Shown: in pieces, positions 1 to 58,524 of the stretch
Layout of the letters: each line of letters starts with the position of its first letter
How positions within the stretch are numbered: the stretch's first letter is position 1
DNA from: Exiguobacterium mexicanum
GTDB taxonomy: Bacteria > Bacillota > Bacilli > Exiguobacteriales > Exiguobacteriaceae
Length of the DNA: 64,000 bases
Direction of reading: 5' to 3'
Assembly: GCF_005960665.1 (NCBI RefSeq)
Contig: NZ_CP040676.1
Span: forward strand, 444,501-508,500
The notes under the pieces: model-generated
Database searches by the model: none
Told to the model about the DNA's origin: nothing
What the model saw: the letters and a program-made list of their open reading frames with translations, nothing else
Made by a program: the position numbers and the translations under genes

Positions 1-213
1 ATCCAATTAACGGACGCCATTACACGTTTAAACGAAGTTGAACATGTATTTGCTTACGAATTCACTGGTAAACGATATGACGTGGGCGAAAAACTAGGTT
101 TTATCCGTACTACTATCGAATTCGCTTTGAATAGACCAGATTTGGAAAAAGAAGTTTTAGTTATTTTGAAAGAACTAATCACTAATTATGAAGGGAGAAC
201 AATATATAGATGA
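1..213 (+). CDS. galU: UTP-glucose-1-phosphate uridylyltransferase, C-terminal part (partial)
   Basis: Reading frame open from the left edge to a TGA, giving the last 70 residues of a protein. The segment FTGKRYDVGEKLGFIRTTIE followed by FALNRPDL is the typical C-terminal end of GalU-type pyrophosphorylases, which make UDP-glucose from UTP and glucose-1-phosphate in the cytoplasm. The catalytic N-terminal part lies outside the window, so function rests on this tail only. The stop overlaps the start of the next gene (ATGA at 210-213), implying translational coupling. UDP-glucose from this enzyme is the substrate of the UDP-glucose dehydrogenase at 4874-6040, so the two probably serve the same pathway. 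Confidence 0.8.
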   Translation: MQLTDAITRLNEVEHVFAYEFTGKRYDVGEKLGFIRTTIEFALNRPDLEKEVLVILKELITNYEGRTIYR

Positions 214-905: not shown

Positions 906-969
906 AATTTAGTCCATAGTCTTTTAAACATGAAATTTTATCAATGACTAATATTTTTTATATGATGAA

Positions 970-2014: not shown

Positions 2015-2064
2015 CCGTCATATAACAAAATCGATTGTTTTAAATTAATTAAGGAGTTTTTTCA

Positions 2065-3622: not shown

Positions 3623-3629
3623 TGTTTAT

Positions 3630-4817: not shown

Positions 4818-4873
4818 AAGGAATAATTACCTATTCTTCAGTGATTACTATTCTATTTTGATAGGAGTTTGAA

Positions 4874-8333: not shown

Positions 8334-8425
8334 TGCTAGCATTCCTTCCATCTCCTAACGTTCTTGTGTCGCAACTTAAACGTTAGGGTGAGATTATGGT
8401 TGCTGGCAAGTCCTTTTTCTTTTCT

Positions 8426-8482
8426 AAAATAGGAGTGCAGAGTTGTGTACGTTTCCGTTGCACACTTCTGCACTCCTATTTT
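8426..8482. repeat. Inverted repeat in the right end of the IS21 element
   Basis: AAAATAGGAGTGCAGA at 8426-8441 is the exact reverse complement of 8467-8482, with a 25-nt spacer. It belongs to the family of end sequences listed for this IS region and probably contains transposase binding sites. Confidence 0.8.
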
Positions 8483-8706
8483 GCATTACACATGGATCAG
8501 TTATATGCAAGTAGCAATCGATAGTTTGGTGTATGCCGACCGAGTGGTTGACGGCTTAGCACTGGACTGTCTCCGTTCCAGTTGTATAGTGCAAAATAGG
8601 AGTGGTTCTTACGCAATGTTGGTGAGGTAGTGATGCTGACATTATGGGAATAAAATCAAAAACGATTGATTCCAATGAACGAGTTGGAGTTCTTAGATGA
8701 TCGACT

Positions 8707-10245
8707 GTGCTGTATTTTGCACTACACATGTGCGTCACGAGTGCTCATTCACACGATGGGGTGAGACACTTTGCCGCTCGTCTCGTGTCCAGCGGTGCAT
8801 GCTCTCCAGACTGTGGTCAGTCTTGTCAACGACGTCACAGTTTCACGACACAGCGGCTAAAAGACTTCTCAGGAATACATCAGGTTTTCCGTCTGAACAT
8901 CCAAGTACCGAAACGGTTCTGCGACAACTCAAAATGCCAACGTTCCATCTTTACAGAGCGATTGCCGTGGGCCATTTCTCATTCGCGGAGAACGCTCCGT
9001 TCGGAGCGTGTGTTGTCCACTTTAATGTTGGCCATGAGTGCGAAGGAAGCCGAGCGTGTCACGACCGTCCTAGGTTTTCGAATCAGTCACGACACGCTAC
9101 TCAGGGTGCTACGACGTGTGCCCGTCCCGAGCCCCTGTGCTGAGGTGATCGGCACTGATGACTTCGCCTTCAAAAAGGGTCACCGATACGGGACCATCAT
9201 CTGTGACGCAACAACCCATCGTCCCATCGACCTGCTGCGGACCCGCGAAGCGGACATGTTGAAGGATTGGCTTGTGAATCTGGAGAAACGACCTGTCCGC
9301 GCATTGGTCGATCGATTCCCGGCCTATGAAGAGGCGTTGCTCGACCAGGACATCGTAGTGGTGAGCGACCGCTTCCACCTCGTAGACAACCTATGGCGAT
9401 GTCTCAATTCGATATGCCAGCGTGTCCTCCCCTCTCGAGTCCCTGTAAAACTGGAAGGTACCGTATCGTACGGTTTGAAACCGGAACATCCGACTGAACC
9501 CGAGAAAGAAACGAAACGACCGTTGGTCGAAAGGGTTCAAAGCATGCACCGCCAAGGGATGAGTCTGAATGCGATCGCCCAGATGCTCAGCTTGAATTGG
9601 AGGACCGTCAAAAAATACAGTGATCCGGCTTACGAGCCTTCCCTGCAGAAACGACAAAGACCTCACTTGATCGATCGTTTCATGCCACATTTGAGAGAAT
9701 GTGTCCGAAATCGATTCACAATCCAGGAAACGGACGCTCATCTGAGGCAATTAGGTTACAGGGGTTCGTTTGGCGCGGTCCGTCACCGTTCACGTGACGT
9801 TCGGAGGGAGGGTCTTCCCGAACCCCAGGTTTTCATATCGCGCAAGGATGTCTGCCGCCTACTCTGGCAATGGCCTGCGACCAGGCCGGACGATACCATC
9901 GATGTCTCGTACCTGTTGGTCCGTTACGGAGACCTCGCCATCCCGTTCTGTTTTATTAAAGGATTTCGGGAAGCGATTCGGGAACGGGACGCGGGACATC
10001 TCCTTTCGTTGATCACCAATCCACAGGTCACATCACACCCCGGACTGAAGCGTTTCGTGGGTCGCCTCAAACAAAATATAGAGGCAATCCTGGCGGCCTG
10101 TCAATTTGAAGAAAGCAATGGTTACGTGGAAGGGAACGTCAATCGTCTAAAGGTGATGAAGCGACTCATGTATGGAAGGGGAAATTTTGACTTGCTCAGG
10201 ATTCGGGTGCTTTGTCGAAATCCCGAGCCGAGTTGTGCTCACTGA
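8707..10245 (+). CDS. ISL3-family transposase
   Basis: 512 residues if read from the GTG at 8707, the first possible start after an in-frame TGA at 8698. The N-terminal zinc-finger region (CSPDCGQSC, then RFCDNSKCQRSIF), the DDE core (Asp in VIGTDDFAFKKG, Asp in VVSDRFHLVDN, Glu in ESNGYVEGNVNRLKVMKRLM) and the C-terminal GRGNFDLLRIRVL are those of ISL3 transposases. A central helix-turn-helix, SLNAIAQMLSLNWRTVKKYS, is present. The true N-terminus is doubtful: an ATG at 8675 in another frame encodes MNELEFLDDRL, which looks like a plausible family start, so a frameshift between about 8700 and 8765 may have damaged this copy. Confidence 0.88.
   Translation: MLYFALHMCVTSAHSHDGVRHFAARLVSSGACSPDCGQSCQRRHSFTTQRLKDFSGIHQVFRLNIQVPKRFCDNSKCQRSIFTERLPWAISHSRRTLRSERVLSTLMLAMSAKEAERVTTVLGFRISHDTLLRVLRRVPVPSPCAEVIGTDDFAFKKGHRYGTIICDATTHRPIDLLRTREADMLKDWLVNLEKRPVRALVDRFPAYEEALLDQDIVVVSDRFHLVDNLWRCLNSICQRVLPSRVPVKLEGTVSYGLKPEHPTEPEKETKRPLVERVQSMHRQGMSLNAIAQMLSLNWRTVKKYSDPAYEPSLQKRQRPHLIDRFMPHLRECVRNRFTIQETDAHLRQLGYRGSFGAVRHRSRDVRREGLPEPQVFISRKDVCRLLWQWPATRPDDTIDVSYLLVRYGDLAIPFCFIKGFREAIRERDAGHLLSLITNPQVTSHPGLKRFVGRLKQNIEAILAACQFEESNGYVEGNVNRLKVMKRLMYGRGNFDLLRIRVLCRNPEPSCAH
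8711..8730 (+). repeat. IS21-end-like repeat inside the ISL3 element
   Basis: TGTATTTTGCACTACACATG differs at only two positions from the left end of the IS21 element (6128-6147). It lies across the 5' end of the ISL3 transposase gene, not at an element end. Origin unknown. Confidence 0.7.
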
Positions 10246-11541: not shown

Positions 11542-12411
11542 TTATTCATTCAAGCTATCAATCAACTTACGACTTTGTTCTCTAGACACATGTAGATAGC
11601 GCTCGGTCGTACTGATTGACTTGTGCCCAAGGAGTTTGCCTACACTGAGCATATCTTGACTCTTATTGTAGAGCGTCGTCGCAAAACTGTGACGCAACAT
11701 ATGGCTCGTCAGCTTCACACCGAACTGTTCTTGTGCGATTTTCTTCAAATCACCATTTACAAAGCCAGGTTGAACGACACGGCCGGTCGGCATCAAGAAA
11801 ATGCGATTCGAATCTCCGACGTTCGGTCGATGCGTGGCAATATACTTCTTTAATTCCGTCGTAAGTCTAGGTGTCATCGGGACATGACGTGTCTTGTCGC
11901 CTTTTCCTTTTCGGACCGTCAACAACCGCTCCTCGAAATCGATATGGTTGATTTCCAAATTCAAAATCTCACTGATCCGTAATCCGGCATCCCCTCCGAC
12001 GAGATAAATCGTATAGAGCGTGTAATTGCGGGCGTGATACAGCACCGTGTTCAATTGGTCGCGCGTAATGATTGTTGGCGGTTCGCTGACACCTTCCCGT
12101 GTGACGATTCGACCGAATGGATTATGAGTCATCCACTGCTGGTCGAGGGCGAACGTAAACAGCCCACGGATGCGCATGATATAGGATTTGACCGTATTGT
12201 CGGCCATTCCGCTGAGGTGTTTCTTATACGGGATCGCATGGTTCGTCTCGCTAATGTCTTGGATATACACCACACCGTGCTTGGCCGCATAGCGGGCAAA
12301 GCGAAACAACGAATTGCGCGTGCTTTTCAGCGTCGTCTCGGGGGCTTCCTTTCGTTCTCTCAAGTCCGTTAAGTACATGTCGATGGCATCATTTAGTAAC
12401 ACGTGTTTCAT
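11542..12411 (-). CDS. Tyrosine recombinase/site-specific integrase
   Basis: 289 residues from the ATG at 12411, favoured because AAGGAG lies 8 nt upstream; a GTG at 12420 would have the site directly against it. The SAM-like N-terminal DNA-binding domain covers about residues 1-90. The catalytic domain has Arg in GGDAGLRISEILNL, a lysine in VRKGKGDKTRHVP, His-x-x-Arg in SHMLRHSFATTLY, His in LLGHKSISTTERYLH and the nucleophile Tyr in ERYLHVS. Length and motifs resemble XerC/XerD-like and phage-type integrases. No phage genes or attachment repeats were recognised nearby. It is coupled to a sigma-like gene upstream. A role in local inversion, chromosome-dimer resolution or a lost element is possible. 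Confidence 0.9.
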   Translation of the reverse strand: MKHVLLNDAIDMYLTDLRERKEAPETTLKSTRNSLFRFARYAAKHGVVYIQDISETNHAIPYKKHLSGMADNTVKSYIMRIRGLFTFALDQQWMTHNPFGRIVTREGVSEPPTIITRDQLNTVLYHARNYTLYTIYLVGGDAGLRISEILNLEINHIDFEERLLTVRKGKGDKTRHVPMTPRLTTELKKYIATHRPNVGDSNRIFLMPTGRVVQPGFVNGDLKKIAQEQFGVKLTSHMLRHSFATTLYNKSQDMLSVGKLLGHKSISTTERYLHVSREQSRKLIDSLNE

Positions 12412-12416
12412 GTTGA

Positions 12417-12869
12417 TCACTCCTTCAAGTTGATTGCCTCTTTCAGTTCCCGTTGGACGTCGGCCTTATATGCCCGCAAACGACTCGGCGAATAAGACAG
12501 CGTCTGTTCGGTCCCGTCAATCAAGTGGCAAAGGAGTTCGAAATGGCGGGGCGACAACAACAACCGCTGTTCATCGAGCCAGTCGAAGAGATTGCGTTCG
12601 GACGTCATACATTGCTCCGGGATTCGTTCGGCCGCGACCTCATGCTTTAAATGTCGGGCATTCTTTTGTTGGTGATTCAGAATGGCGCCCCGAATCCGTT
12701 GGAAGCAATACGTCTTCGATAGCATGCAGCCGCGATTCAACGCTTCCCATAGGGCGATTCGTGCGATTTGGGCGCAGTCTTCCTGTTCGTTCGGGTGAAT
12801 CGATAGGTGGCGGATGACATAGTGAATCATCGGTTCCCATTCATAGATTTGATCATCAATGTGAGTCAT
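12417..12869 (-). CDS. Small sigma-70-like regulatory protein
   Basis: 150 residues. Residues about 8-75 resemble sigma-70 region 2: EWEPMIHYVIRHL, EQEDCAQIARIALWEALNRG, then FQRIRGAILNHQQKNAR, close to the common pattern QEDLxQxGxxxLWEA and RIRGAIxxxxR. Residues about 100-148 (LDEQRLLLSPRHFELLCHL, then SPSRLRAYKADVQRELKEA) look like a shortened region 4, though the recognition helix is not obvious. The stop overlaps a GTG of the recombinase gene (GTGA) and lies 6 nt from its preferred ATG, so the two are translated together. It may be an alternative sigma factor, an ECF-like or ComX-like relict, or a regulator of the recombinase. I am fairly sure of the fold, less of the function. Confidence 0.65.
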   Translation of the reverse strand: MTHIDDQIYEWEPMIHYVIRHLSIHPNEQEDCAQIARIALWEALNRGCMLSKTYCFQRIRGAILNHQQKNARHLKHEVAAERIPEQCMTSERNLFDWLDEQRLLLSPRHFELLCHLIDGTEQTLSYSPSRLRAYKADVQRELKEAINLKE

Positions 12870-24487: not shown

Positions 24488-26516
<2,029 letters not shown>

Positions 26517-41945: not shown

Positions 41946-42998
41946 ATGCCAAGCCTCACCCAGCTCGTTAGTCTGGTCGTCCCAATCTATAACACAAGCG
42001 CCTACTTGAGACAGTGTCTTGACAGCCTTGTTCATCAAACGTATCCACATCTCGACATTATTTGTATCGATGACGGGAGTACAGATGATAGTCTCAACAT
42101 TGCATTGTCTTACGACAAAGATCCGAGAGTACGTGTCATCAGTCAAACGAATCGTGGCTGTTCTTCCTGCCGCAATCGAGGCCTTCAATTGGCATCAGGT
42201 GAGTATATCATGTTCATCGATAGTGACGACTGGCTTGATGTAGATGCGATTCGACTATTAGTTGAACACGCGGAGAATGAACGGGCAGATGCCGTCATGG
42301 GGACGTATGTGCGTGAATACAAGGGACGTTCTCTTCCGAAGCGAATCTTTGAAGCGGACTTCTTATCTTACAACGAAGAAGAGACGAGACGGTATGTCCA
42401 TCGCCGCCTATTCGGACTCGTCGGTGAGGAGCTCGCTCACCCGGAGACAGTGGATGCGCTCAATTCAAACTGTATCACGCTTTATCATCGTGATCTCATC
42501 AAACATCTAACGTTTGGCGGTCCATACGGGACATTTATCGATTTATATTTTCAAATCCAAGCATTGGAGCATTGCCAACGATTCATTTATATCGACTATC
42601 CAGTCTACCATTATCGAAAAACAAATACCCAGTCTGAAACGAGTGTCTATCACAAAGACCTTGTCGCCTCGCGCCTCCAGTTCTTCCACATTTTAATGCG
42701 CTATATCGAGACACATCAGCTCGGCGAGGAATATAATCATGCTCTTTATAACCGGATCGCCCTCAGTATGATTGGAATTGGTTTAAACGAAATTGCTGCG
42801 CCGAAATCTCTGTTCGCTCAAGCGGAATCATTGAAACAAGTGCTCCGACAAGAAGAGTACAAACGGGCTTATTCGCAGATGGATATGCGTCATTTTGATG
42901 TAAAGTGGCGAACATTTTTTCGGCTCTGTAAAAACGAACAGACTGTACCGCTTGTGTTGATGTTACGTGGTGTCGATTATCTTCGGAAGCGTGTATGA
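41946..42998 (+). CDS. GT2-family glycosyltransferase
   Basis: 350 residues from the ATG at 41946, with AAGGAG 8 nt upstream. GT-A N-terminus: SLVVPIYNTSAYLRQCLDSL, DIICIDDGSTDDSL, ASGEYIMFIDSDDWLDVDAI (the DSDDW motif holds the metal-binding Asp). The C-terminal half is rich in aromatic and charged residues without clear membrane segments. It begins a new transcription unit and is followed 13 nt later by another glycosyltransferase. Donor unknown. Confidence 0.9.
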   Translation: MPSLTQLVSLVVPIYNTSAYLRQCLDSLVHQTYPHLDIICIDDGSTDDSLNIALSYDKDPRVRVISQTNRGCSSCRNRGLQLASGEYIMFIDSDDWLDVDAIRLLVEHAENERADAVMGTYVREYKGRSLPKRIFEADFLSYNEEETRRYVHRRLFGLVGEELAHPETVDALNSNCITLYHRDLIKHLTFGGPYGTFIDLYFQIQALEHCQRFIYIDYPVYHYRKTNTQSETSVYHKDLVASRLQFFHILMRYIETHQLGEEYNHALYNRIALSMIGIGLNEIAAPKSLFAQAESLKQVLRQEEYKRAYSQMDMRHFDVKWRTFFRLCKNEQTVPLVLMLRGVDYLRKRV

Positions 42999-43011
42999 GG
43001 AGGAGAGAACG

Positions 43012-44169
43012 ATGAAACGAGTGCTCATGGTCGCCTCGGTCGTCTCGATGATTGAGAGCTTCAACCGCGACAATATCCGCATGTTGCAGGACATGGCATA
43101 TAAGGTTGACGTCGCCACGAACTTCGAGTGGGGCAGCATGTATTCGCCTGAGAAGATCGCCCGCATCAAACAGGACTTGGAGGCGGACGGGGTCACACTG
43201 TACCAAGTCGATTTCGAGCGCGACATCAAGAAGATGAACGGCCACGTCCGGGCCTATCAACAGTTGAAGGCCGTCATGACGGCAAACCGCTATCACTTCA
43301 TCCACTGTCACTCGCCAATCGGCGGGGTCGTCGGCCGGCTCGTCGCCCGTCAGACACACACGCCATGCATGTATACGGCACACGGCTTCCATTTCTTCAA
43401 AGGCAGCCCGTCGCTCAACTGGATGCTGTATTATCCGGTCGAGCGGACGCTCGCCCGGCTGACCGACACGATTGTCACCATCAACGAGGAAGATTTCTCG
43501 CGGGCGCAGACGTTCAAGACGTCGCACACGTTCCGCATCCCCGGCATCGGTGTCGACACGAAACGAATCGAGGCGGTCACGGTTGACCGGCCGCTGAAAC
43601 GGCGCGGCCTCGGCATCGACAGTGACACCGACTTCGTCTTGTTATCGGTCGGTGAGTTGAACGAGAACAAGAACCACGAGACGATTATCCGCGCCATCGC
43701 CTCACTGAAGGAACCGACGCTCCGCTATTTGATTGCCGGGACGGGTGACAACAAAGACCAGCTCGAACGGCTCATTCGGGAGCTCGGACTCGAGCGACAA
43801 GTATTCTTGCTCGGTTTCCGCGACGATGTCATCGAAGTGATGAAGGCGGCGGACTGCTTCGTCTTCCCGTCAAAGCGGGAAGGTCTCGGCATGGCCGCAC
43901 TCGAGGCGATGGCGGCGGGACTCCCGCTCATCACATCGAACGTGCATGGGATCAACGACTATTCGATTGACGGGGTGACTGGTTATAAATGTGCTCCTGA
44001 GGATGTGGCCGGCTTTGCCCGGGCCATCCGGACGATGCAACTCGATTTCGATTTGTCCCACCAAATGGGGCTCCACAACAGCGAGTCGGTCAAGGCATTT
44101 GACGTCAATCGTTCGAAATCGGAGATGCGACGCATCTATTCTCAATTCGTTCAGGATAAGCCGACATGA
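43012..44169 (+). CDS. GT4-family glycosyltransferase (EpsD/CapM-type)
   Basis: 385 residues from the ATG at 43012, which has GAGGAGGAG upstream; a longer frame starts inside the previous gene. GT-B fold: HFIHCHSPIGGVVGRLVARQ and MYTAHGFHFFKGSPSLNWML are typical of the EpsD/TuaC/Cap8J-like group in Gram-positive capsule loci. Donor domain has LLSVGELNENKNHETIIRAI and the E-x7-E motif PSKREGLGMAALEAMAAGLP. The gene is noticeably GC-richer than its neighbours. Confidence 0.9.
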   Translation: MKRVLMVASVVSMIESFNRDNIRMLQDMAYKVDVATNFEWGSMYSPEKIARIKQDLEADGVTLYQVDFERDIKKMNGHVRAYQQLKAVMTANRYHFIHCHSPIGGVVGRLVARQTHTPCMYTAHGFHFFKGSPSLNWMLYYPVERTLARLTDTIVTINEEDFSRAQTFKTSHTFRIPGIGVDTKRIEAVTVDRPLKRRGLGIDSDTDFVLLSVGELNENKNHETIIRAIASLKEPTLRYLIAGTGDNKDQLERLIRELGLERQVFLLGFRDDVIEVMKAADCFVFPSKREGLGMAALEAMAAGLPLITSNVHGINDYSIDGVTGYKCAPEDVAGFARAIRTMQLDFDLSHQMGLHNSESVKAFDVNRSKSEMRRIYSQFVQDKPT

Positions 44170-44225
44170 TAGTTCATGAAAAGATGGTAGACATTTCTTT
44201 CCGATTTGTATGGAACGTCGGGTAA
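44163..44225 (+). promoter_or_regulatory. Conserved 63-nt upstream block, copy 1 (before capA)
   Basis: GACATG at 44163, ATG-x-TA-x-ACATTTCTTTCC at 44184-44202 and CGGGTAA at 44219-44225 recur with identical spacing at 49415-49477 before the capE-like gene. Likely a shared promoter or regulator site; the sigma factor or protein is not recognised. Confidence 0.55.
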
Positions 44226-44303
44226 GGAGTAAAGACAGAGAACGGCAACAACGTCACGACTGGATATTTGTCTATGCAACTTTGTCTGAAGGAGGGCTTA
44301 CGT

Positions 44304-45080
44304 GTGAAAAGTCAAACGATGTTACTCTCAGAAATATTCGGGGTGTTAAAGAAAAATATGTTGCTTCTCCTCTTGATGATTCTCATGGGTGGAGGGGCTG
44401 CCTATTATTTAAGTCAGTATGTGATCGCGCCGACTTATGAGGCTTCGACACAAGTACTGATTGTACCGAAAGAAGAGGCTGGTACGAATGTCGTCGACAG
44501 CTCGCAAGTCTCATCTTCACTCTCCCTTGTGAACACGTATCGTGTCATCATGCGCAGTCCGGCTATTTTGAATGAGGTCCAAGCTCGAGTCGCGGAAGCG
44601 CCGAAAGACATCAGTGAAATCCTCTTAGTAGAAAGTGAGGAAGAATCACAAGTCATCAACATTGTAGTGGAGTACGGTGACCCTGTCGTCGCCACCGAAA
44701 TCGCCAACGTCATCACACGCGTGTTCGCCAGTGAGATTCCTGATTTGATGAATATCGATAACGTTCGCATTCTATCGGAAGCCGTCGTACCAGGCGAACC
44801 CATCGCTCCGAATGTCGTCATAAATACTGCAATTGGTCTGCTTGCAGGGTTTGTGATTGGAGGCGTGCTCGCCCTCATCCGTCATACGTTTGATAAACGG
44901 ATTCATGATGAGCGTGAGGCGGAACAAATTTTGTCCATGCCAGTAATCGGATCGATTCCGGTCATTGAAAAACGTGACATGAACCCAAAGGTAGTTAAAC
45001 CAAAAGCTGAGGCTGGCACGGCGCCGAAAGGAGACGATCCACATGTTCCACCTGTCAAAGAGTCAAGACAAACATCGTGA
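44304..45080 (+). CDS. capA: Wzz/CapA-type chain-length and kinase-modulator protein
   Basis: 258 residues from the GTG at 44304, with GGAGG 6 nt upstream; an earlier ATG at 44268 has no such site. Membrane segments at about 18-38 (MLLLLLMILMGGGAAYYLSQ) and about 175-195 (VINTAIGLLAGFVIGGVLAL) enclose an extracellular Wzz domain (YEASTQVLIVPKEEAGTNVV). The cytoplasmic tail activates the BY-kinase encoded next. In Gram-positive capsule systems this pair sets chain length and export. The tail overlaps the kinase gene by 38 bp. Confidence 0.92.
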   Translation: MKSQTMLLSEIFGVLKKNMLLLLLMILMGGGAAYYLSQYVIAPTYEASTQVLIVPKEEAGTNVVDSSQVSSSLSLVNTYRVIMRSPAILNEVQARVAEAPKDISEILLVESEEESQVINIVVEYGDPVVATEIANVITRVFASEIPDLMNIDNVRILSEAVVPGEPIAPNVVINTAIGLLAGFVIGGVLALIRHTFDKRIHDEREAEQILSMPVIGSIPVIEKRDMNPKVVKPKAEAGTAPKGDDPHVPPVKESRQTS

Positions 45081-45747
45081 TTCGGGGCGCAGCCTTATCA
45101 CGTTAGCGAATCCTAAATCTCCGATTGCCGAACAGTATCGGACCATACGAACGAATTTGCAATTCACGGCGCTTGGTGCGACGTTGCAGACGATTGTCGT
45201 CACATCGGCGTCGGCCGGGGAAGGTAAATCGACGACGGCCTCTAACTTGGCCATCGTCTACGCGCAACTCGGAAAACGGGTGTTGCTAATGGATTGTGAC
45301 ATGCGTAAGCCAACGGTACATTTCACGTTCCAACTTGCAGGTCAGACGGGTTTATCCACTGTTCTCGCCAAACGGACAACGTTCGATCGTTCGGTTCAAA
45401 TGACGAAAGTGCCAAAGCTCCATTTGTTGGCAGCGGGTCCGATTCCACCGAACCCGTCAGAGTTGCTCGCGTCACCGATGATGAAGCAGTTGTTAGATGA
45501 GGTGAAGGAAAAGTATGACTTGATTATCTTGGATGCACCCCCGCTCATGCATGTAGCGGACAGCCGATTATTAGCAAGCGAGACGGACGGAACGATTCTT
45601 GTCGTAGGTTGCGATAACTCGAACCGAGACCTCGTATTAAAGGCGAAAGAGCAGCTCGTCTTATCGGGCGCCCACATGTTAGGGATTGTAATGAATAAAC
45701 GTGAGCGCGCCGGAAAGAATGCATACTACGCATATACGTACGAATGA
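45043..45747 (+). CDS. capB: CpsD/CapB-family tyrosine-protein kinase
   Basis: 234-residue cytoplasmic BY-kinase. Walker A SASAGEGKSTTASNLA, Walker A' RVLLMDCDMRKPTV and Walker B YDLIILDAPPLM are complete. The C-terminus carries the autophosphorylated tyrosine cluster NAYYAYTYE. It works with the CapA-type protein of the preceding gene to control polymerisation, and often phosphorylates UDP-glucose dehydrogenase, one of which is encoded at 4874-6040. AAAGGAG lies 9 nt before the ATG. Confidence 0.95.
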   Translation: MFHLSKSQDKHRDSGRSLITLANPKSPIAEQYRTIRTNLQFTALGATLQTIVVTSASAGEGKSTTASNLAIVYAQLGKRVLLMDCDMRKPTVHFTFQLAGQTGLSTVLAKRTTFDRSVQMTKVPKLHLLAAGPIPPNPSELLASPMMKQLLDEVKEKYDLIILDAPPLMHVADSRLLASETDGTILVVGCDNSNRDLVLKAKEQLVLSGAHMLGIVMNKRERAGKNAYYAYTYE

Positions 45748-45800
45748 GACGGAGATTGGCTGGTTTGATGTGAATTATGGAAGCAAGAGGAGGCAGCAAA

Positions 45801-46736
45801 ATGAAGAATCCACTCGTCTCGATTGTCATCCCGGTATACAATGGGGCAGACTTTTTGAAGGAAACAATTGAAAGCGCCCTCGCCCAAACGTATGAGCGAG
45901 TGGAAGTGATTGTGATCAACGATGGTTCGACAGATGGGGGGGCGACGGCGGCGATTGCCAGTAGTTTTGGGAATCGGATTCGATACTTTGAAAAAGCGAA
46001 TGGCGGGGTATCGACCGCGCTCAATTTGGGCATCGAGAAGATGCGAGGCGAATGGTTCTCCTGGTTAAGTCATGACGATCTCTATACTGCCGATAAAATC
46101 AAGACACAGGTTCAGCATTTAGAAAAACTTGGGGATCAGGCAAATCGCTATATCTTATCGTGCGGGACGAAGCTGATTGATGAATCAGGCCATCCGATCC
46201 ATCGTCCGAGAAGACAGCCGAAAGGCATGTATACGAATGTAGAGATGTTCAACTATTTATTGTTGGACGCTTGTTTGAGCGGATGCGCGCTACTGATTCC
46301 GAAACAAGCGCTCATTAGCGTCAATGGGTTTCCGACATCGTATCGATACATTCAAGATTGGGTGTGCTTCACTGATTTAGCTTTAGAGGGTTACCATTTT
46401 AAGATGACCACTGAGCCTCATGAGAAGACACGCATTCATGCAAAACAACAAACGAAAAAAATTGCGAACCTTGCGCCGATTGAAACGGCTCGCTTCTTCG
46501 AACAGTTATTGATTCGACTTGATGCAATCAATAGTGAGACGACGCCACAGATTAAAACGGTATTTAAAGCCATCTATCGATCGACCGAACCAGAAGTAAG
46601 AGATGAGTTGCTTCGAAGATTCGACGGGAACCGTCATTTGAATTGGATTGATCAAAAGACTTTGCTCGTCTCGTCATTCATCTACCATCGTCTATTGACG
46701 TTGTATCGAGGGATGATGAACCTTCGTTATCGCTGA
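45801..46736 (+). CDS. GT2-family glycosyltransferase
   Basis: 311 residues from the ATG at 45801 (AGGAGG 7 nt upstream). GT-A motifs: PLVSIVIPVYNGADFLKETI, VEVIVINDGSTDGG, and GEWFSWLSHDDLYTADKI, where SHDD replaces the more usual SDDD. The C-terminal part has no membrane helices. It lies between the kinase gene and the EpsG-type polymerase gene. Confidence 0.9.
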   Translation: MKNPLVSIVIPVYNGADFLKETIESALAQTYERVEVIVINDGSTDGGATAAIASSFGNRIRYFEKANGGVSTALNLGIEKMRGEWFSWLSHDDLYTADKIKTQVQHLEKLGDQANRYILSCGTKLIDESGHPIHRPRRQPKGMYTNVEMFNYLLLDACLSGCALLIPKQALISVNGFPTSYRYIQDWVCFTDLALEGYHFKMTTEPHEKTRIHAKQQTKKIANLAPIETARFFEQLLIRLDAINSETTPQIKTVFKAIYRSTEPEVRDELLRRFDGNRHLNWIDQKTLLVSSFIYHRLLTLYRGMMNLRYR

Positions 46737-46758
46737 CAACCGCAAAGGAGGAGGTCAT

Positions 46759-47823
46759 ATGTGGATTTATCTGATCAATATGTTACTTCTGATCGCATGG
46801 GCGGCGCTCCTCCTGCGTGAAGATGGCATCAAGCATGGTAAGTTGCTGTTTGTGACGATTGCGACGGGGCAATGGATTCTATTGTCAGGCTTTCGTCACT
46901 TCAGTGTCGGAGCTGACACGATGCAATACAAATGGATGTTTGATGAGACGAAGAGAATCTCATGGGACCGATTGGGTCAAAATTTTGTCGACGTCGTATT
47001 TGGAGATGGGGATGGTCGAGATCCTGGTTACTATTTATTGCAGAAAATGATACAACTTGCGACCGAAAATTATCAATGGTATTTACTGACGGTCGCACTT
47101 TTGTTCCTCATTCCGTTTGGGATTTGGATTTATCGCAACTCGACCGAGCCGCTGCTGAGCTTCCTGATTTTCTCGACCTTGTTTTACGCCTTCTTTGCCA
47201 TCACTGGCATTCGCCAAACGATTGCAACGGCCATCGCCGTATTGATTGGTTACTACTTCATTCAAACGAGACGATTTTGGCCGTTTCTCGGGGTCGTACT
47301 GCTTGCGGCGACGATTCACAAATCTGCACTCGTTTTTCTCCCATTTTATTTCTTGGCGACGAAAGCCATCACGCCGAAGTATCTACTTTTTATGGGCGCA
47401 TTGATTCCGTTCTTGTTCGTGTTTCGTGTCCAACTGTTCGAATTTTTCCGAACCATTAGTGGGTACAACGAATACGAATATTATACGGGAGCAGGTACAT
47501 TTAACTTCTCTATGATTATGATTTTAATCACGATTGTCTCGCTTTGGCGTCGTGAACAGATGATTGCGGTCAATCCGAACGTGACTCATTATTTGAATGC
47601 CTTGTTATTGGCACTTTGTTTTCTGCCACTAACGTTTATCAACCCTTCTATGATGCGGATCGTCCAATATTTTTCTATCTTCGTCATGTTGTTGATCCCA
47701 GAACTGATTCGTTCCTTCGAACGTCGGGAGCGCCTGCTCGTCTATTACGTGGCCATCACGATGCTGCTGCTCTTGTTTGTCCGTAACGAACCACTTTATA
47801 TGTTCTTTTGGCAACAGAAATAA
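46759..47823 (+). CDS. EpsG-family polysaccharide polymerase (Wzy-type)
   Basis: 354 residues with about ten membrane segments. The pattern FRHFSVGADTMQYKWMFDET after the second helix, DPGYYLLQKMIQLATENYQW and the ITGIRQTIATAIAVLIGYYF segment are typical of the EpsG family, which joins repeat units on the outer face of the membrane. It starts 22 nt after the GT2 gene with GGAGG, and is followed by the flippase gene, giving a normal Wzy-Wzx pair for the second locus. Confidence 0.9.
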   Translation: MWIYLINMLLLIAWAALLLREDGIKHGKLLFVTIATGQWILLSGFRHFSVGADTMQYKWMFDETKRISWDRLGQNFVDVVFGDGDGRDPGYYLLQKMIQLATENYQWYLLTVALLFLIPFGIWIYRNSTEPLLSFLIFSTLFYAFFAITGIRQTIATAIAVLIGYYFIQTRRFWPFLGVVLLAATIHKSALVFLPFYFLATKAITPKYLLFMGALIPFLFVFRVQLFEFFRTISGYNEYEYYTGAGTFNFSMIMILITIVSLWRREQMIAVNPNVTHYLNALLLALCFLPLTFINPSMMRIVQYFSIFVMLLIPELIRSFERRERLLVYYVAITMLLLLFVRNEPLYMFFWQQK

Positions 47824-47838
47824 GGGGAGGGGAATCTG

Positions 47839-49380
47839 GTGACGACGAAAGTGGAGTTTGATGAACAAAAAAGTTCACGACAAATCAAAATCGGTGTACT
47901 CATGTCTTACATCGCCATCGGATTTAATATCCTCGCCGGGCTGTTCTACACACCATGGATGATTGCGGAAATCGGGAAGGCGAACTATGGACTCTATATG
48001 CTATCGCTGTCGCTCGTCAGCATCTTCGCGCTAGATTTCGGCTTGGAGGCGGCGGTGTCACGCTTCCTGTCAAAATATCATGCGCTCGGAGATTCAGAAG
48101 GAGCGTCCCGTTTTCTAGGTGTCGCGTTCAAACTTTTTATTGGCATCGCGCTGTTGATTGGCCTCGTTCTGATTGGGGTCTATGTAATGATCGACACGAT
48201 TTACGCAAGCCTATCGCCTGCTGAAGTCGAGACGCTCCAAGTGTTGTACATCATGGTCGGTTTTTACATCGTCGTCTTGTTTCCGACCAAACCGTTCAAT
48301 GGAATTTTTATCGCCAATGAGCGATTTGTCGTCCTCAACTGGTTCAACTTGATTGAGAAAGTGTCGACTGTCGTTTTAATGATTGGAGCGCTTTTGTTCG
48401 GGTTTGGCTTGTATGCGCTCGTTTTTGTCAATGCCATTGTCGGGTTATCCATCATTATCGGGAAAGGCATCTACTTGCTCCGTAAAACGGAGACAGCGAT
48501 TGATTTTTTACACAACAGTCGTTCAATGTACCGGGATATCTTTTCTTTCTCCTCCTGGACGACAGTCATCGCTATCGCGCAGCGTTTCATTTTAAACATC
48601 ACCCCGACGATTCTCGGGGCTTTAGCGAGTAGTGCGTCCATCGCTTTATTCTCAATCGGGATGGTCATTGAAGGATACGTTTGGACAATATCATCAGCGA
48701 TTGGATCTCTATTCCTCCCGAAAGTCACGCGAATGACGACCTATAATCGTCAGTCCGAATTGGATCATTTGTTGATTCGTGTCGGACGTATCCAATTGTA
48801 TATCGTCGGCTTGATTATCATCAGTTTTGCGACGATGGGTCGGGAGTTCATCGGACTTTGGGTCGGACCGGACTTCTTTCCATCCTATGTGGTTGCGTTG
48901 CTACTCATTCTTCCGGGGCTCATCACATTGACGCAAGAAATCGCCTATACGACGTTAATTGCCGTCAATCAAATTAAGTATCGGGCGTTCGCATCCCTCA
49001 TTGTCGCAACGGTCAGTGTGATTTTATCGCTTATCTTGTCGCCGCATTATGGTGCAATCGGTGCTGCCATTGCCATCTTGATTGGGAATTTGGTTGGTAC
49101 CGTCATATTTATGAACCTGGTGTACTTACGTGTCTTGAAATTGAATATGTGGAAATTCTTCTACGAATGTCATGTGAAGATTGCGCCGGCCTTAATTTTT
49201 CTAGGAATTTCCGGCTTCTTATTCCAACGATATCTGCCTGTCGATTCACTCATTCACTTCCTCTTTAAAGCTGTTGTGCTCGGTCTCGTCTACTTTATCT
49301 TTCTATGGATGTTCACGTTTCGGGATGATGAAAAAGAATTGTTGCGTGGGTTTGTCCGTCATGCATCGAAGACATCCTGA
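47839..49380 (+). CDS. Wzx-type polysaccharide flippase
   Basis: 513 residues starting at GTG with GGGGAGGGG upstream. About 14 membrane segments; the N-terminal IKIGVLMSYIAIGFNILAGL and the motif SLVSIFALDFGLEAAVSRFL are typical of polysaccharide transporters of the MOP superfamily. It is longer and of different composition than the flippase at 3630-4817, so the two serve separate polymers. A terminator hairpin overlaps its stop codon. Confidence 0.92.
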   Translation: MTTKVEFDEQKSSRQIKIGVLMSYIAIGFNILAGLFYTPWMIAEIGKANYGLYMLSLSLVSIFALDFGLEAAVSRFLSKYHALGDSEGASRFLGVAFKLFIGIALLIGLVLIGVYVMIDTIYASLSPAEVETLQVLYIMVGFYIVVLFPTKPFNGIFIANERFVVLNWFNLIEKVSTVVLMIGALLFGFGLYALVFVNAIVGLSIIIGKGIYLLRKTETAIDFLHNSRSMYRDIFSFSSWTTVIAIAQRFILNITPTILGALASSASIALFSIGMVIEGYVWTISSAIGSLFLPKVTRMTTYNRQSELDHLLIRVGRIQLYIVGLIIISFATMGREFIGLWVGPDFFPSYVVALLLILPGLITLTQEIAYTTLIAVNQIKYRAFASLIVATVSVILSLILSPHYGAIGAAIAILIGNLVGTVIFMNLVYLRVLKLNMWKFFYECHVKIAPALIFLGISGFLFQRYLPVDSLIHFLFKAVVLGLVYFIFLWMFTFRDDEKELLRGFVRHASKTS

Positions 49381-49396
49381 ACGGGGTGTCTTTTTT
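49371..49396 (+). terminator. Terminator overlapping the flippase stop
   Basis: GACATCC (49371-49377) pairs with GGGTGTC (49384-49390, one G-T pair) followed by TTTTTT. Short stem, so termination may be partial. Confidence 0.65.
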
Positions 49397-49414
49397 CATA
49401 GGACGCAAACATTA

Positions 49415-49477
49415 GACATGTCATCTTTCAAAAAAATGATAAACATTTCTTTCCTATTCTCATAATGAGACGGGTAA
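49415..49477 (+). promoter_or_regulatory. Conserved 63-nt upstream block, copy 2 (before capE)
   Basis: Same blocks as at 44163-44225: GACATG at 49415, ATGATAAACATTTCTTTCC at 49436-49454 and CGGGTAA at 49471-49477. TAGACA at 49413-49418 would be a fair -35, but no consistent -10 is seen in both copies. Confidence 0.55.
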
Positions 49478-49570: not shown

Positions 49571-50596
49571 ATGTTTACAGACAAGACGTTATTGATTACT
49601 GGAGGAACCGGATCATTCGGAAACGCCGTTATGCAGCGCTTTCTGAAAACTGATATTAAAGAGATTCGTATCTTTTCACGAGACGAGAAGAAACAGGACG
49701 ACATGCGTAAACTGTATCATGACGACAAACTCAAATTTTATATCGGTGACGTCCGTGATGTGAACAGTGTGCGAAACGCGATGTACGGTGTCGATTATGT
49801 ATTCCACGCCGCGGCGTTGAAACAAGTCCCTTCCTGTGAGTTCTTCCCACTAGAGGCAGTGAAAACGAACGTGTTGGGAACGGACAACGTCTTGAACGCG
49901 GCCATCGAGCAACAAGTTCAAAAAGTCATTTGCCTATCGACCGACAAGGCGGCCTATCCAATCAATGCGATGGGCATTTCTAAGGCGATGATGGAAAAAG
50001 TATTCGTCGCCAAAGCGAAAGCCGTCGGACCGGAGCAGACGTTGATTTGCGGCACGCGCTACGGAAACGTCATGGCATCACGGGGTTCTGTCATTCCACT
50101 CTTCGTCGATCAAATCAAACGAGGTGAACCGTTGACCGTGACCGACCCGTTCATGACACGTTTCTTGATGAGTCTCGAAGACGCGGTCGAACTTGTCGTC
50201 TTCGCCTTCCAGAATGCACACGCGGGAGACATCATGGTCCAAAAGTCACCGGCGTCGACGATCGGGGTATTGGCGCAAGCGTTGCTCGAGCTGTTCCAAG
50301 CGAACAACCCGATTAAAGTCATCGGCACACGGCATGGTGAGAAGTCATACGAGACGCTGTTGACACGAGAAGAGAATGTCGTCGCAGAAGATATGGGCGG
50401 CTTCTACCGCGTCCCGGCCGATACACGCGACTTGAACTACGATAAATACTTCAATGAGGGTAGCAAGCAATTGACGGTCGAGGGTGAATATAATTCGGCC
50501 AATACAGAACAGTTGAACGTCGAGCAAGTGAAGCAACTGTTATTGACTCTTCCTTACATCCAACAAGAACTTGCGAGCTGGGTGAAAGTATCATGA
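49571..50596 (+). CDS. capE: UDP-GlcNAc 4,6-dehydratase/5-epimerase (CapE/FnlA-type)
   Basis: 341 residues from the ATG at 49571 (AGGAGAGG about 7 nt upstream). Extended SDR with LLITGGTGSFGNAVMQRFL, IFSRDEKKQDDMRKLY and FHAAALKQVPSCEFFPLEA. The catalytic motif is MxxxK (NAMGISKAMMEK) in place of YxxxK, as in CapE/FlaA1 enzymes. It performs the first step from UDP-GlcNAc to UDP-L-FucNAc; the next two genes encode the later steps. Start of a new transcription unit, preceded by the conserved block. Coupled to capF by ATGA. Confidence 0.93.
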   Translation: MFTDKTLLITGGTGSFGNAVMQRFLKTDIKEIRIFSRDEKKQDDMRKLYHDDKLKFYIGDVRDVNSVRNAMYGVDYVFHAAALKQVPSCEFFPLEAVKTNVLGTDNVLNAAIEQQVQKVICLSTDKAAYPINAMGISKAMMEKVFVAKAKAVGPEQTLICGTRYGNVMASRGSVIPLFVDQIKRGEPLTVTDPFMTRFLMSLEDAVELVVFAFQNAHAGDIMVQKSPASTIGVLAQALLELFQANNPIKVIGTRHGEKSYETLLTREENVVAEDMGGFYRVPADTRDLNYDKYFNEGSKQLTVEGEYNSANTEQLNVEQVKQLLLTLPYIQQELASWVKVS

Positions 50597-51777
50597 AGAT
50601 TCTCGTCACCGGAGCATCTGGATTCATCGGTAAGAATCTGGTCGCAGAATTGACCGCACGGGGACATGACGTGTACTCGTGCACACGCGATACACCAGAA
50701 GCGTTGTTTCAGCAGTTTTGCCGAACGGCCGAGTTCGTCTACCATTTGGCCGGGGTGAACCGCTCGGAAACGGAATCCGACTTTGCGGAAGGAAACACCG
50801 GGTCGACCGAGCGCTTGGTCGCAGCACTGACCGCGCATGCCAATGACGCGCCGATTATGTTTGCCTCGTCGATTCAAGCGGCCCAGGACAATCCGTACGG
50901 ACGAAGCAAACTCGCGGCGGAGCGTGTGCTGAGAGCCGAATATGAGACGACGGGACGCACCATCTATCTGTTCCGTTTCCCGAACCTGTTTGGAAAGTGG
51001 GGCCGGCCGAACTATAACAGTGTCGTCGCGACGTTTTGTTATCGGGTCGCACGAGACTTGCCGATAGAAATTCACGACCTGGCACGCACCGTGCAACTGG
51101 CGTATATCGATGACGTGATCGATGCGTTGATCGGCTTGCTCGACGTGAGAGGACAAACACCGGCCGTGTATGAGGAAGAAGTTGCAGTCCATCCGCCAAT
51201 CGAGCTCGGCCGAATCGCCGACTTGTTACAGACATTCAAAGAAAGTCGCCAGAGCTTGGCCGTCCCGAATTTAGAGGATGTGTTTACGAAGCAACTGTAC
51301 AGCACGTACCTCAGTTACTTGCCTGTCGACAGCTTCGCTTATGACTTGAAGTTGAATGAAGATGCACGCGGGTCGTTCACTGAATTCATCCGGACACCTG
51401 ACCGGGGACAAGTGTCCGTCAACGTTGCCAAGCCCGGGATCACGAAAGGGAACCACTGGCACCACACGAAAAATGAAAAGTTCCTCGTGGTCAGCGGCGA
51501 GGCGTTGATTCGTTTCCGCAAGGTCGGAGAGAACGAGGTCCATACGTATCACGTCACGGGAGAGATGATGCGTGTGCTCGATATCCCAACCGGCTATACG
51601 CACAACATTGAAAACATCGGAACGACCGACTTGGTGACCGTCATGTGGGTGAATGAGGCCTATGACCCGAACAACCCGGACACATACTTTATGGAGGTGC
51701 AAGATGAAACGACTCAAAGTGATGACTATCGTCGGGACGCGTCCCGAAATCATACGCCTGTCGGCCGTTATTCATAA
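50593..51777 (+). CDS. capF: Bifunctional SDR/cupin reductase (CapF/FnlB-type)
   Basis: 394 residues. N-terminal SDR reductase with VTGASGFIGKNLVAEL, YHLAGVNRSETESDF and the catalytic pair in NPYGRSKLAAERV (YxxxK). The C-terminal cupin domain has the zinc-binding cluster GNHWHHTKNEKFLVV. This architecture is that of CapF, which reduces the 4-keto intermediate on the way to UDP-L-FucNAc. CapF proteins normally end near the segment NPDTYFMEV; here the frame runs about 24 codons further, 74 bp into the next gene. The added tail (QDETTQSDDYRRDASRNH) is just the next gene read in another frame and is probably non-functional. Confidence 0.92.
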   Translation: MKILVTGASGFIGKNLVAELTARGHDVYSCTRDTPEALFQQFCRTAEFVYHLAGVNRSETESDFAEGNTGSTERLVAALTAHANDAPIMFASSIQAAQDNPYGRSKLAAERVLRAEYETTGRTIYLFRFPNLFGKWGRPNYNSVVATFCYRVARDLPIEIHDLARTVQLAYIDDVIDALIGLLDVRGQTPAVYEEEVAVHPPIELGRIADLLQTFKESRQSLAVPNLEDVFTKQLYSTYLSYLPVDSFAYDLKLNEDARGSFTEFIRTPDRGQVSVNVAKPGITKGNHWHHTKNEKFLVVSGEALIRFRKVGENEVHTYHVTGEMMRVLDIPTGYTHNIENIGTTDLVTVMWVNEAYDPNNPDTYFMEVQDETTQSDDYRRDASRNHTPVGRYS

Positions 51778-52861
51778 ACTGGAACACTCTGAGGCCATCG
51801 AGCACGTCCTCGTGCATACGGGACAAAATTATGACTATGAATTAAATGAAGTGTTTTTCGAGGATTTCTCTTTGCGAAAACCCGATTACTTTCTTAATTC
51901 TGCGACGGGCAGCCCGATTGAGACGATTGGTAACATTCTCATCCAAGTCGATCCCGTGCTTGAACTCGAACGTCCGGATGCGGTGTTGATTCTCGGAGAT
52001 ACAAATTCTTGTCTTGCGGCAATCGCGGCCAAACGCCGGAAAATCCCGATTTTCCATATGGAGGCCGGCAACCGCTGCTTCGACCAACGCGTTCCGGAAG
52101 AAATCAATCGGAAGATTGTCGACCATACCGCGGACGTGAATTTGACGTACAGCGATATCGCCCGGGAATACCTTCTCCGAGAAGGGCTCCCGGCGGAACG
52201 AATCATCAAGACGGGAAGCCCGATGTTCGAGGTGTTGATGTCGAAACGAGAGGCGATTGAACAGTCAGATGTGCTGAGCCGGCTTGAACTGACTCCGGAC
52301 CACTACTTCATCGTCTCGGCGCATCGAGAAGAGAACGTCAACTCCGACAAACACTTCTTGGCACTTGTCGACAGTTTGAACGCAATCGCGGGGCAGTATG
52401 GACTACCGGTCATCGTCAGCACCCATCCACGGACGATGAAGCGGATTCATGAATTGAACGTCTCGTTCCATCCGCTGGTCCGGCTCCTCAAGCCGCTCGG
52501 ATTTGTCGACTATAACCACCTTCAACTGCATGCTAAAGCGGTGCTCAGTGACAGCGGGACAATCAGCGAAGAGTCTTCCATCCTTGGATTGAGAGGATTG
52601 AATATCCGAGAGACGCATGAGCGGCCGGAGGCGATGGAAGAAGGGGCCGTCTTGATGGTCGGGCTTGAGAAAGAGCGAATCTTACAAGGATTGTCGGTCG
52701 TCATGGAGCAGGAGCGGCCTCGCCTCGTCAGTGACTACAGCATGCCGAACGTCTCGGACAAAGTGGTACGGATTTTGATCTCGTACACGGATTATGTCCG
52801 ACGCGAGGTATGGAAAGGCACGACCGACCCCCGTCAAACCGTAAGGGAGGGTGAACGATGA
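51704..52861 (+). CDS. capG: Non-hydrolysing UDP-sugar 2-epimerase (CapG/FnlC-type)
   Basis: 385 residues from the ATG at 51704, with GGAGG upstream within the capF end. Family segments: MTIVGTRPEIIRLSAVIHKL, HTGQNYDYELNEVFFEDF, HMEAGNRCFDQRVPEEINRK, SAHREENV, and SDSGTISEESSILGLRGLNI. The FDQRVPEEINRK version is typical of enzymes acting on UDP-2-acetamido-2,6-dideoxy-L-talose, giving UDP-L-FucNAc, and not of WecB. Completes the CapE-CapF-CapG route. Overlaps the next gene by 4 bp. Confidence 0.92.
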   Translation: MKRLKVMTIVGTRPEIIRLSAVIHKLEHSEAIEHVLVHTGQNYDYELNEVFFEDFSLRKPDYFLNSATGSPIETIGNILIQVDPVLELERPDAVLILGDTNSCLAAIAAKRRKIPIFHMEAGNRCFDQRVPEEINRKIVDHTADVNLTYSDIAREYLLREGLPAERIIKTGSPMFEVLMSKREAIEQSDVLSRLELTPDHYFIVSAHREENVNSDKHFLALVDSLNAIAGQYGLPVIVSTHPRTMKRIHELNVSFHPLVRLLKPLGFVDYNHLQLHAKAVLSDSGTISEESSILGLRGLNIRETHERPEAMEEGAVLMVGLEKERILQGLSVVMEQERPRLVSDYSMPNVSDKVVRILISYTDYVRREVWKGTTDPRQTVREGER

Positions 52862-57850: not shown

Positions 57851-58492
57851 ATGTATGCACGTTTTGTGAAACGTCCGCAAGACATGATTCTTGCGACGAT
57901 CTCACTGCTTGTTTTAAGTCCCGTCCTCGTGACGGTCGCGGGTCTCATCAAGTGGAAGCTCGGAGGACCGGTGCTGTTCAAACAAAAACGTCCCGGGAAA
58001 GACGGCGTCATCTTCGAGATGATGAAGTTTCGGACGATGACCGATGAGCGGGATGAGCACGGCGAGCTGCTACCGGACGAGGTACGGTTGACCCCGTTCG
58101 GTCAGACGCTCCGGTCGCTCAGTCTCGATGAGCTGCCGAGTCTGCTCAACATTGTCAAGGGTGACATCGCCATCGTCGGACCGCGCCCGTTGCTCGTCGA
58201 GTATTTACCGCGTTATAACGAGGAGCAGCGCCGACGTCACGACGTCCGGCCTGGACTGACAGGCCTCGCCCAAGTGAACGGACGGAACCGGCTGTCATGG
58301 CCGGATCGTTTCGCGCTCGACGTGAAATACGTCAACAACATCACGTTTCTCAACGACTGGAAAATCATCTTGCAGACGGTCGGTAAAGTCGTGAAGAAGG
58401 ACGGTATCTCGTCGGATACGGCGGCAACGATGGAGGCGTTTATGGGGAATGAAACTAGGAGAGAACCTCAAAAAGAATTGCACTTGAGTTAG
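57851..58492 (+). CDS. Initiating sugar-phosphate transferase (PglC/CapM-like)
   Basis: 213-residue monotopic phosphoglycosyl transferase. A reentrant membrane helix lies at about 10-33 (DMILATISLLVLSPVLVTVA); catalytic segments are LFKQKRPGKDG, MKFRTMTDERDEHGELL, LRSLSLDELPSLLNIVKGDI, VGPRPLLVEYLPRY and RPGLTGLAQVNGRN. This short PglC type starts many capsules with N-acetylamino-dideoxy sugars, so UDP-L-FucNAc or another amino sugar is a plausible substrate. It is the last gene of the second locus. Its final codons overlap the terminator. Confidence 0.92.
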   Translation: MYARFVKRPQDMILATISLLVLSPVLVTVAGLIKWKLGGPVLFKQKRPGKDGVIFEMMKFRTMTDERDEHGELLPDEVRLTPFGQTLRSLSLDELPSLLNIVKGDIAIVGPRPLLVEYLPRYNEEQRRRHDVRPGLTGLAQVNGRNRLSWPDRFALDVKYVNNITFLNDWKIILQTVGKVVKKDGISSDTAATMEAFMGNETRREPQKELHLS

Positions 58493-58516
58493 AAAAACTC
58501 GGGCGCAATTCTTTTT
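58471..58516 (+). terminator. Terminator of the second polysaccharide operon
   Basis: AAAAGAATTGC (58471-58481) and GCAATTCTTTT (58505-58515) with an inner GAGTT/AACTC stem; T run at the end. It starts inside the last codons of the upstream gene. Confidence 0.9.
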
Positions 58517-58524
58517 GTCGTTTT

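Follow-up and report, generated by a model that had tools for sequence, protein, structure and literature searches.

Why do two transcription units of one capsule-type locus in Exiguobacterium mexicanum begin behind blocks of 63 nt that share short motifs at equal offsets? The blocks lie in a stretch of 64,000 nt (assembly GCF_005960665.1, contig NZ_CP040676.1, positions 444,501 to 508,500 of the forward strand), called the window here and used for all position numbers, one upstream of capA and the other upstream of capE (fnlA). A first-pass annotation, made from the letters alone, had proposed that they are a common promoter or binding site. Our comparison leads us to read them, with moderate confidence, as promoter-operator modules, in which a dimeric DNA-binding protein together with a promoter bearing the -10-like hexamer GGGWAW would co-ordinate the cap genes with a gene of the LytR-CpsA-Psr (LCP) family.

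Two matching blocks in the cap locus

Block 1 spans 44163..44225 on the + strand and starts where the glycosyltransferase gene before it (42967..44169) has its stop codon. Block 2, also on the + strand, spans 49415..49477 in the gap between a flippase gene and capE. As the annotation described, the offsets are equal: the blocks align without gaps at 42/63 positions, with GACATG, ATGxTAxACATTTCTTTCC and CGGGTAA all in register. Each block can be divided into a 41-bp site, the putative operator, and a downstream hexamer of the GGGWAW type. The capA operator occupies 44170..44210 (+ strand, -16..+24 around the G of AAAAGATG at 44186, dyad centre 44189) and is followed by GGGTAA at 44220..44225, while the capE operator occupies 49422..49462 (+ strand, G at 49438, dyad centre 49441) and is followed by GGGTAA at 49472..49477. 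Both hexamers, on the + strand, lie 31 bp from the dyad centre of their site and resemble a promoter -10 element.

The likeness of the two blocks to one another barely exceeds noise. Their alignment scores 34/47 and is the best 47-mer self-match on the + strand of the window, but 33/47 is reached on four other diagonals, so the pair alone proves little and comparison between genomes had to decide. The E. mexicanum genome measures 2.69 Mb in 4 contigs, and in it the pattern ACATTTCTTTCC-N16-CGGGTAA is found nowhere but at blocks 1 and 2, even when up to 3 mismatches are allowed; the backward control of the same pattern gives 1 + 1 matches.

Conservation among Exiguobacterium genomes

The sample comprised 38 genomes of the family, 19 from the window's Exiguobacterium genus and 19 from a sister Exiguobacterium genus; related loci belong to E. 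chiriqhucha, E. aurantiacum, E. alkaliphilum, E. profundum and others. When 19 genomes were searched with the pattern (<=3 mismatches), a same-strand pair 5.2-6.4 kb apart was present in G007, G008, G011, G014 and G015 besides the E. mexicanum genome, and the remaining matches were scattered singles, one of which (in G003) is a true capA site. Two models reached more diverged copies: R1, a sequence-only model built from 13 copies, and R2, an operator-only model built from 28 sites. Outside its training set R1 found 12 further capA sites, three of them in variant loci (G002, G010 and G017), and ten further capE sites; with it, diverged pairs were found in the remaining ten capE-carrying genomes. 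The E values of these cap sites run from 5e-12 to 0.48, the weakest being the capE site of G012, recognised from its position and by reading. In the window itself R1 returns exactly two matches at E <= 10, and no further site.

The gene capA is present in 38/38 genomes of the family, and capE (E <= 1e-100) in 18/38, 16 of these in the window's genus. Absence of the blocks from related loci was one of the outcomes that the annotation had named as evidence against itself. Instead, the 41-bp site with GGGWAW stands upstream of capA in 19/19 genus genomes and upstream of capE in 16/16 genus genomes that carry capE in this locus. Three genus genomes (G002, G010 and G017) have no capE match at E <= 1e-100 and possess a different cap locus without capE, in which the capA operator is kept with GGGAAA about one helical turn further off. 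Reading by eye, the block is absent upstream of capA in the 11 regions returned from the 19 sister-genus genomes, and absent from 5/5 fnlA copies that lie outside this locus (second copies in G003, G005 and G006, and those of G031 and G033). Judged from this pattern of conservation, the two blocks are a real, genus-wide control site.

Anatomy of the 41-bp site

The consensus of 28 sites (cap and LCP together) is CATGTTnCnAAAAAATGnTAAnCATTTCTTTCCnATTnTCA, with a length of 41 bp. Taking the G of AAAAxATG as position 0, the bases common to 35/35 cap sites are A (-15), T (-12), AAA (-7 to -5), T (-1), T (+2), T (+10), C (+11) and TT (+19/+20); three others, A (-4), G (0) and T (+14), are each shared by 34/35. 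The site contains a dyad, AAARAAATGnTnAnCATTTYTTT, which is kept best in clade 1 and at the LCP gene. Of the motifs singled out by the annotation, the GGGWAW hexamer is constant genus-wide, but GACATG at its offset and the exact ACATTTCTTTCC are limited to part of clade 1.

When five diverged clade-1 genomes are compared, the site has a mean pairwise identity of 0.88 at capE and 0.74 at capA. The 9-bp spacer has 0.53 (capE) and 0.30 (capA), and GGGWAW 0.90 (capE) and 1.00 (capA). In the flanks of the same genomes identity is 0.54 and 0.62 on the upstream side; the leaders give 0.67/0.52 for capE and 0.43/0.55 for capA. The two sites of a genome also track each other in part. In clade 2 the left arms of capA and capE are 94% identical within one genome, orthologous left arms across clades reaching 59% (capA) and 82% (capE). 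In clade 1 the right arms are 80% alike within a genome, compared with 55% and 47% across clades. We count the contrast of site and hexamer with spacer and flanks, and the clade-2 likeness of left arms, in favour of the promoter-operator reading. The left-arm likeness within a clade would also suit a promoter duplication, in which one block arose recently by copying from the other and conversion keeps the two similar, without any shared regulation. Duplication does not suit the concentration of likeness in the site and GGGWAW, with spacers and leaders differing, nor clade-2 sites that differ in their spacing to GGGWAW (31 vs 40), nor a third copy that is inverted and part of an unrelated promoter. 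We consider it very improbable.

An inverted third copy upstream of an LCP gene

R1 and R2 both give this third site in the E. mexicanum genome. It is an inverted copy of the operator at G000:C4:436511-436550 (L089 4011-4052; E 1.6e-9), about 8 kb before the window and upstream of an LCP gene (LytR_cpsA_psr domain PF03816, E 8.3e-48). LCP proteins are wall-polymer ligases. With R2 the capA operator scores E 7.0e-8 and the capE operator E 5.3e-10 in this genome, all three sites having belonged to the training set of the model; no fourth site is listed at E <= 0.1 among the 150 of 1674 first-look candidates that were scored. R1 gives two more weak places (E 0.06 and 0.23), neither of them among the R2 matches at E <= 0.1. 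The annotation had proposed an element that co-ordinates one locus. A common element does precede the capA-capB and fnlA/capE units, but with a copy at the LCP gene it is not confined to the locus.

The LCP copy is present in 15/19 genus genomes, each time adjoining an LCP gene; 12 of these come from R1 matches, and the others are in G010, G009 and G004. It was not found in the genus genomes G012, G013, G016 and G018. A weak R2 match in G013 (C11, E 0.04) was rejected as an LCP site, there being no LCP gene beside it. The sister genus has weaker, operator-like matches, with E about 0.002-0.08, in two settings. One (L202-L208) is upstream of a gene whose secreted product, on inspection by eye, resembles SH3-repeat proteins. 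The other (L200, L201) is upstream of a second, distant capA-like gene, where the divergent gene resembles, by eye, an O-antigen-ligase-type membrane protein.

Spacing between the site and GGGWAW

In cap sites the distance from dyad centre to GGGWAW is 31 bp (22 sites) or 30 bp (4 capE sites), with a longer class at 40 bp (6 clade-2 capE sites) and 41 bp (3 capA sites, in G017, G002 and G010). At the LCP gene, GGGAA lies 41 bp from the dyad centre in 15/15 genomes (14 GGGAAW, one GGGAAC), despite the inversion and the varying bases in between, and at the SH3-like gene of the sister genus it lies at 20 bp in 7/7 sites read. For comparison, GGGWA is met at any of six in-phase offsets for 0.8% of window positions and in 0.7% of shuffled LCP segments. 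Every spacing in this list corresponds to roughly whole helical turns, which speaks for contact between proteins along one face of the DNA. Since the genomes are related, the spacing classes represent perhaps four or five changes, that is, a handful of independent arrangements.

The same regularity can be set against a structured 5'-leader RNA (an attenuator or antiterminator) repeated before two operons. The blocks are intergenic, as such an element would be, and hairpins can be drawn in single members. However, the 64-kb window has 0 Rfam matches at gathering scores, the consensus fold reaches -1.13 kcal/mol with 0 compensatory changes in 8 pairs across 13 sequences, and z-scores in six members range from 0.29 to -1.94. 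An RNA element would also leave the inverted LCP copy and the spacing shifts of about a whole turn unexplained, and we give it next to no weight. A reverse-strand small open reading frame (ORF), GGAAAGAAATG, was likewise rejected, its ATG being lost in G007 capA.

Sigma-factor fit

The excerpt of PMC9847131 that treats SigB promoters gives their consensus in Bacillales as KTTTW-N12-17-GGGWAW. Measured against this excerpt, the annotation's statement that no familiar sigma-factor consensus fits is half right: the SigB -35 is missing in both blocks, but GGGTAA within CGGGTAA fits the SigB -10. GGGWAW occurs in 35/35 cap sites, at four offsets only. A SigA promoter was sought by eye and dismissed, with no conserved TTGACA/TATAAT in capA or capE blocks. 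The E. mexicanum genome encodes SigB (413.5 bits, cut-off 315), and GTTTAG-N13-GGGAAT is found in the gap before a gene read by eye as rsbV, two genes before sigB. GGGWAW is most likely read by a SigB-type holoenzyme.

The -35 region was scored as the best match to GTTTAA at N12-15, out of 6, and compared with 1000 shuffles. The score is 2 of 6 in each of the window blocks. Long-spaced cap sites, of which there are 9, have a mean of 3.78 vs 2.83 for shuffled sequence (reached in 1/1000), their -35-like sequences being ATTNAA (5/9), ATTCAT (3/9) and ATTTGA (1/9). For the 15 LCP sites the average is 4.07 vs 2.56 (0/1000), with CTATAA-N15 in 14/15 and CTTTAA-N15 in G010. A -35-like element accompanies the distant sites and the site itself takes that place when close; this is how an activator would be expected to lie in class I and class II positions.

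Could the blocks instead be plain SigB promoters that share upstream sequence by chance, the conserved site being nothing other than a -35 region and an UP-like A/T stretch? The constancy of the hexamer, the presence of a sigB gene and the -35-like sequence at N12-15 in the sites with 40-41 bp spacing would all be expected of them. Yet 26/35 cap sites are short-spaced and, as a group, without a SigB -35. The conserved stretch is a precise 41 bp and recurs both inverted and at other distances, and across the genome R2 gives such a site at three places only. Plain SigB promoters therefore seem to us improbable.

Activation or repression

In the mechanism that we propose, a dimeric DNA-binding protein would bind the 41-bp A-tract/T-tract site, and RNA polymerase would start just downstream, at GGGWAW. 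For the window blocks, with GGGWAW taken as -12 to -7, the site would then be centred near -43 relative to the predicted start, over the place of the missing -35 in a class II-like arrangement. At the other, long-spaced cap promoters and at the LCP gene, where roughly one more helical turn separates the site from GGGWAW and a -35-like sequence is present, the arrangement would be class I-like. The activator may accordingly be pictured as replacing or assisting the -35 contact, and the same protein would bind, inverted, upstream of the LCP gene. Such a regulator would co-ordinate capsule chain-length and export control, synthesis of the UDP-FucNAc precursor and, probably, attachment of the polymer to the wall; from the shared site, one protein probably switches cap and LCP genes together. 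More tentatively, and as something possible that we would not yet call probable, the sites may outline a genus-specific envelope-polysaccharide regulon, in which the dimeric regulator drives GGGWAW promoters of SigB type, the -35 is dispensable and a single, roughly symmetric site, usable in either orientation at about 2, 3 or 4 helical turns, ties capsule export control, the supply of sugar nucleotides and wall attachment to one switch.

An alternative is the bipartite operator of a repressor. Here GGGWAW would be a second contact, made by the same protein or a partner, on the same helix face, and transcription would start elsewhere, blocked when both parts are bound. The LCP gene lends itself to this explanation, as in 14/15 genomes its site and GGGAAW flank a SigA-like extended -10 in a classic repressor layout. 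Co-operative binding would also fit spacings of 20, 30-31 and 40-41 bp, and a repressor would account for short-spaced sites without a -35. Against it, capA and capE have no conserved SigA -10, judging by eye, and the LCP site of G010 (L211) has lost the TATAAT of other genomes and kept GGGAAT, in a sequence, CTTTAA-N15-GGGAAT, that is close to a SigB promoter. In addition, the distance from GGGWAW to the start codon is 62-101 nt at the cap genes, where the beginning of the protein match was taken as the start, and 44 nt by hand count at the LCP gene of the E. mexicanum genome, both of them normal for a promoter. We judge repression from a bipartite operator unlikely, if less so than the alternatives above.

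Several observations weigh against the mechanism that we propose. In clade 2 the dyad is weak in its right arm, so that a symmetric dimer is not certain, and the capA and capE sites of one genome resemble each other unevenly, at 53% for clade-1 left arms and 47% for clade-2 right arms. The genomes are kin, and all k-of-n counts given here are of non-independent events. Cap spacings of 30, 31, 40 and 41 bp refer to the first GGGWAW after the site, and nothing but W was accepted there at the W positions. In the sister genus, 5/7 of the sites at the SH3-like gene have another GGGAA 28 bp from the centre, which is out of phase. The 26 short-spaced cap sites, window blocks included, average a -35 score of 2.58 vs 2.84 for shuffled sequence (947/1000 shuffles as good), and the score of the 7 sister-genus sites is weak (4.0 vs 3.43, 60/1000). 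At the LCP gene the CTATAA before GGGAAW (14/15) doubles as a SigA-like -10, with TATAA 21 bp from the centre, and GGGAAW therefore need not be the promoter of this gene. Finally, among the window ORFs that were scanned, none in the cap locus was seen to encode a regulator.

Candidate regulators

For a protein that could act at the proposed modules, we considered the regulators of the E. mexicanum genome. It has seven sigma-70-type genes over the TIGR02937 cut-off and only two LuxR-type response regulators over the GerE cut-off, one DegU-like and one LiaR-like (assigned by eye from gene order and domain matches). The region L129 contains a kinase-like ORF, a response regulator with a LuxR-type domain and a DegV-like ORF (kinase and DegV by eye), an order that we take to be that of degS-degU-degV. 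DegU looked attractive by eye, with AAAA-N11-TTCY readable in the 41-bp site, a likeness to the DegU-P sites of Bacillus subtilis, given as AGAA-N11-TTCAG in the excerpt of PMC4348106. This candidate was rejected: the motif is matched at 5-7 of 9 positions in 35 sites, just as in random 42-mers from the window and in shuffled sites. A Fur-like core, AATGnTAAnCATT, was dropped as the right arm is not kept in clade 2. The two regulators found among the scanned ORFs of the window are of LacI type (at 25530) and RpiR type (at 30974), and stand beside galactose genes and near a phosphotransferase system (PTS) gene.

Genes behind the blocks

Gene roles were taken from NCBIfam matches, 3/5 of which fall under curated cut-offs, and they bear out the annotation's description of one unit for export control and one for UDP-FucNAc synthesis. 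The first gene behind block 1 is capA (44304..45080, + strand), a Wzz/CspC-type polysaccharide chain length determinant (TIGR01006, E 1.8e-51, under the curated cut-off), followed by capB (45043..45747, + strand), a polysaccharide biosynthesis tyrosine autokinase (TIGR01007, over the cut-off). Block 2 is followed first by capE/fnlA (49571..50596, + strand), a UDP-GlcNAc 4,6-dehydratase/5-epimerase (TIGR04130, E 6.9e-167, under the curated cut-off). The capE unit continues on the + strand with a WbcJ-like UDP-2-acetamido-2,6-dideoxy-hexulose reductase (50593..51777; NF047837, E 4.1e-119, under the cut-off) and an ORF for a WecB-type UDP-GlcNAc 2-epimerase of the UDP-FucNAc pathway (51653..52861; TIGR00236, over the cut-off). 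At the end of a sugar transferase gene, an inverted repeat at 58464-58522, with 27-nt arms that are 81% complementary and 5 nt between them, is a possible terminator of the capE unit.

A second polysaccharide cluster is found nearby. It includes a capA paralogue at G000:C4:441378-442058, before the window, for which R2 lists no operator, and genes for a sugar transferase, a glycosyltransferase, polysaccharide synthesis and a UDP-sugar dehydrogenase at window positions 210-6040. Toward the window start there are also transposase-like genes (two rve matches, one just under the cut-off, and one ISL3) and a phage-type integrase, at 982-2010, 6906-10245 and 11542-12420. In another genome, the capA paralogue at G003:C1:942071-942817 has two in-frame stop codons within the match and is likely a pseudogene.

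Comparison with known systems

An eye-spotted repeat has become a defined three-site regulon, with the prediction of one regulator and of start sites. The promoter-operator kind is known; this site and regulon are new as far as the literature was searched, and among the literature matches listed there is no description of capsule regulation in Exiguobacterium. The capsule operon of Staphylococcus aureus, with capA first, reportedly has a SigB-dependent promoter, which none of the papers listed was seen to describe and on which PMC2850373 has no bearing. It would resemble the present locus in gene order and in its tie to SigB, but it is a single operon, whereas the units here are split.

RemA of B. 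subtilis activates biofilm matrix genes and, according to the excerpt of PMC8481266, occupies six or more 7-bp repeats that are periodic and poorly conserved. As described there, it resembles the predicted regulator in activating a polysaccharide operon at an AT-rich site, but the capsule element here is one well-conserved 41-bp site that is used inverted too. Sites of the RemA type have several periodic 7-bp repeats with 3-bp gaps; when the 28 consensus sites were read by eye, no 10-bp repeat was seen. With the SigB promoters of Bacillales, as given in the excerpt cited above, the modules share the -10 GGGWAW (GGGTAA in both window blocks); they differ in that the 26 short-spaced sites have no KTTTW-like element above chance and have the 41-bp site instead.

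The same site at different helical turns is a natural series, and suggests that an upstream activator can rescue SigB-type promoters without a -35. Activator-dependent bacterial promoters of class I and class II are known from CRP. The modules resemble these in that the site lies near -43 without a -35 or about one turn further up with a -35-like element, and in that it keeps helical phase with the promoter (30/31, 40/41 and 20 bp). They differ from the CRP type in that no CRP-type half-site is seen and the -10 is GGGWAW, not TATAAT.

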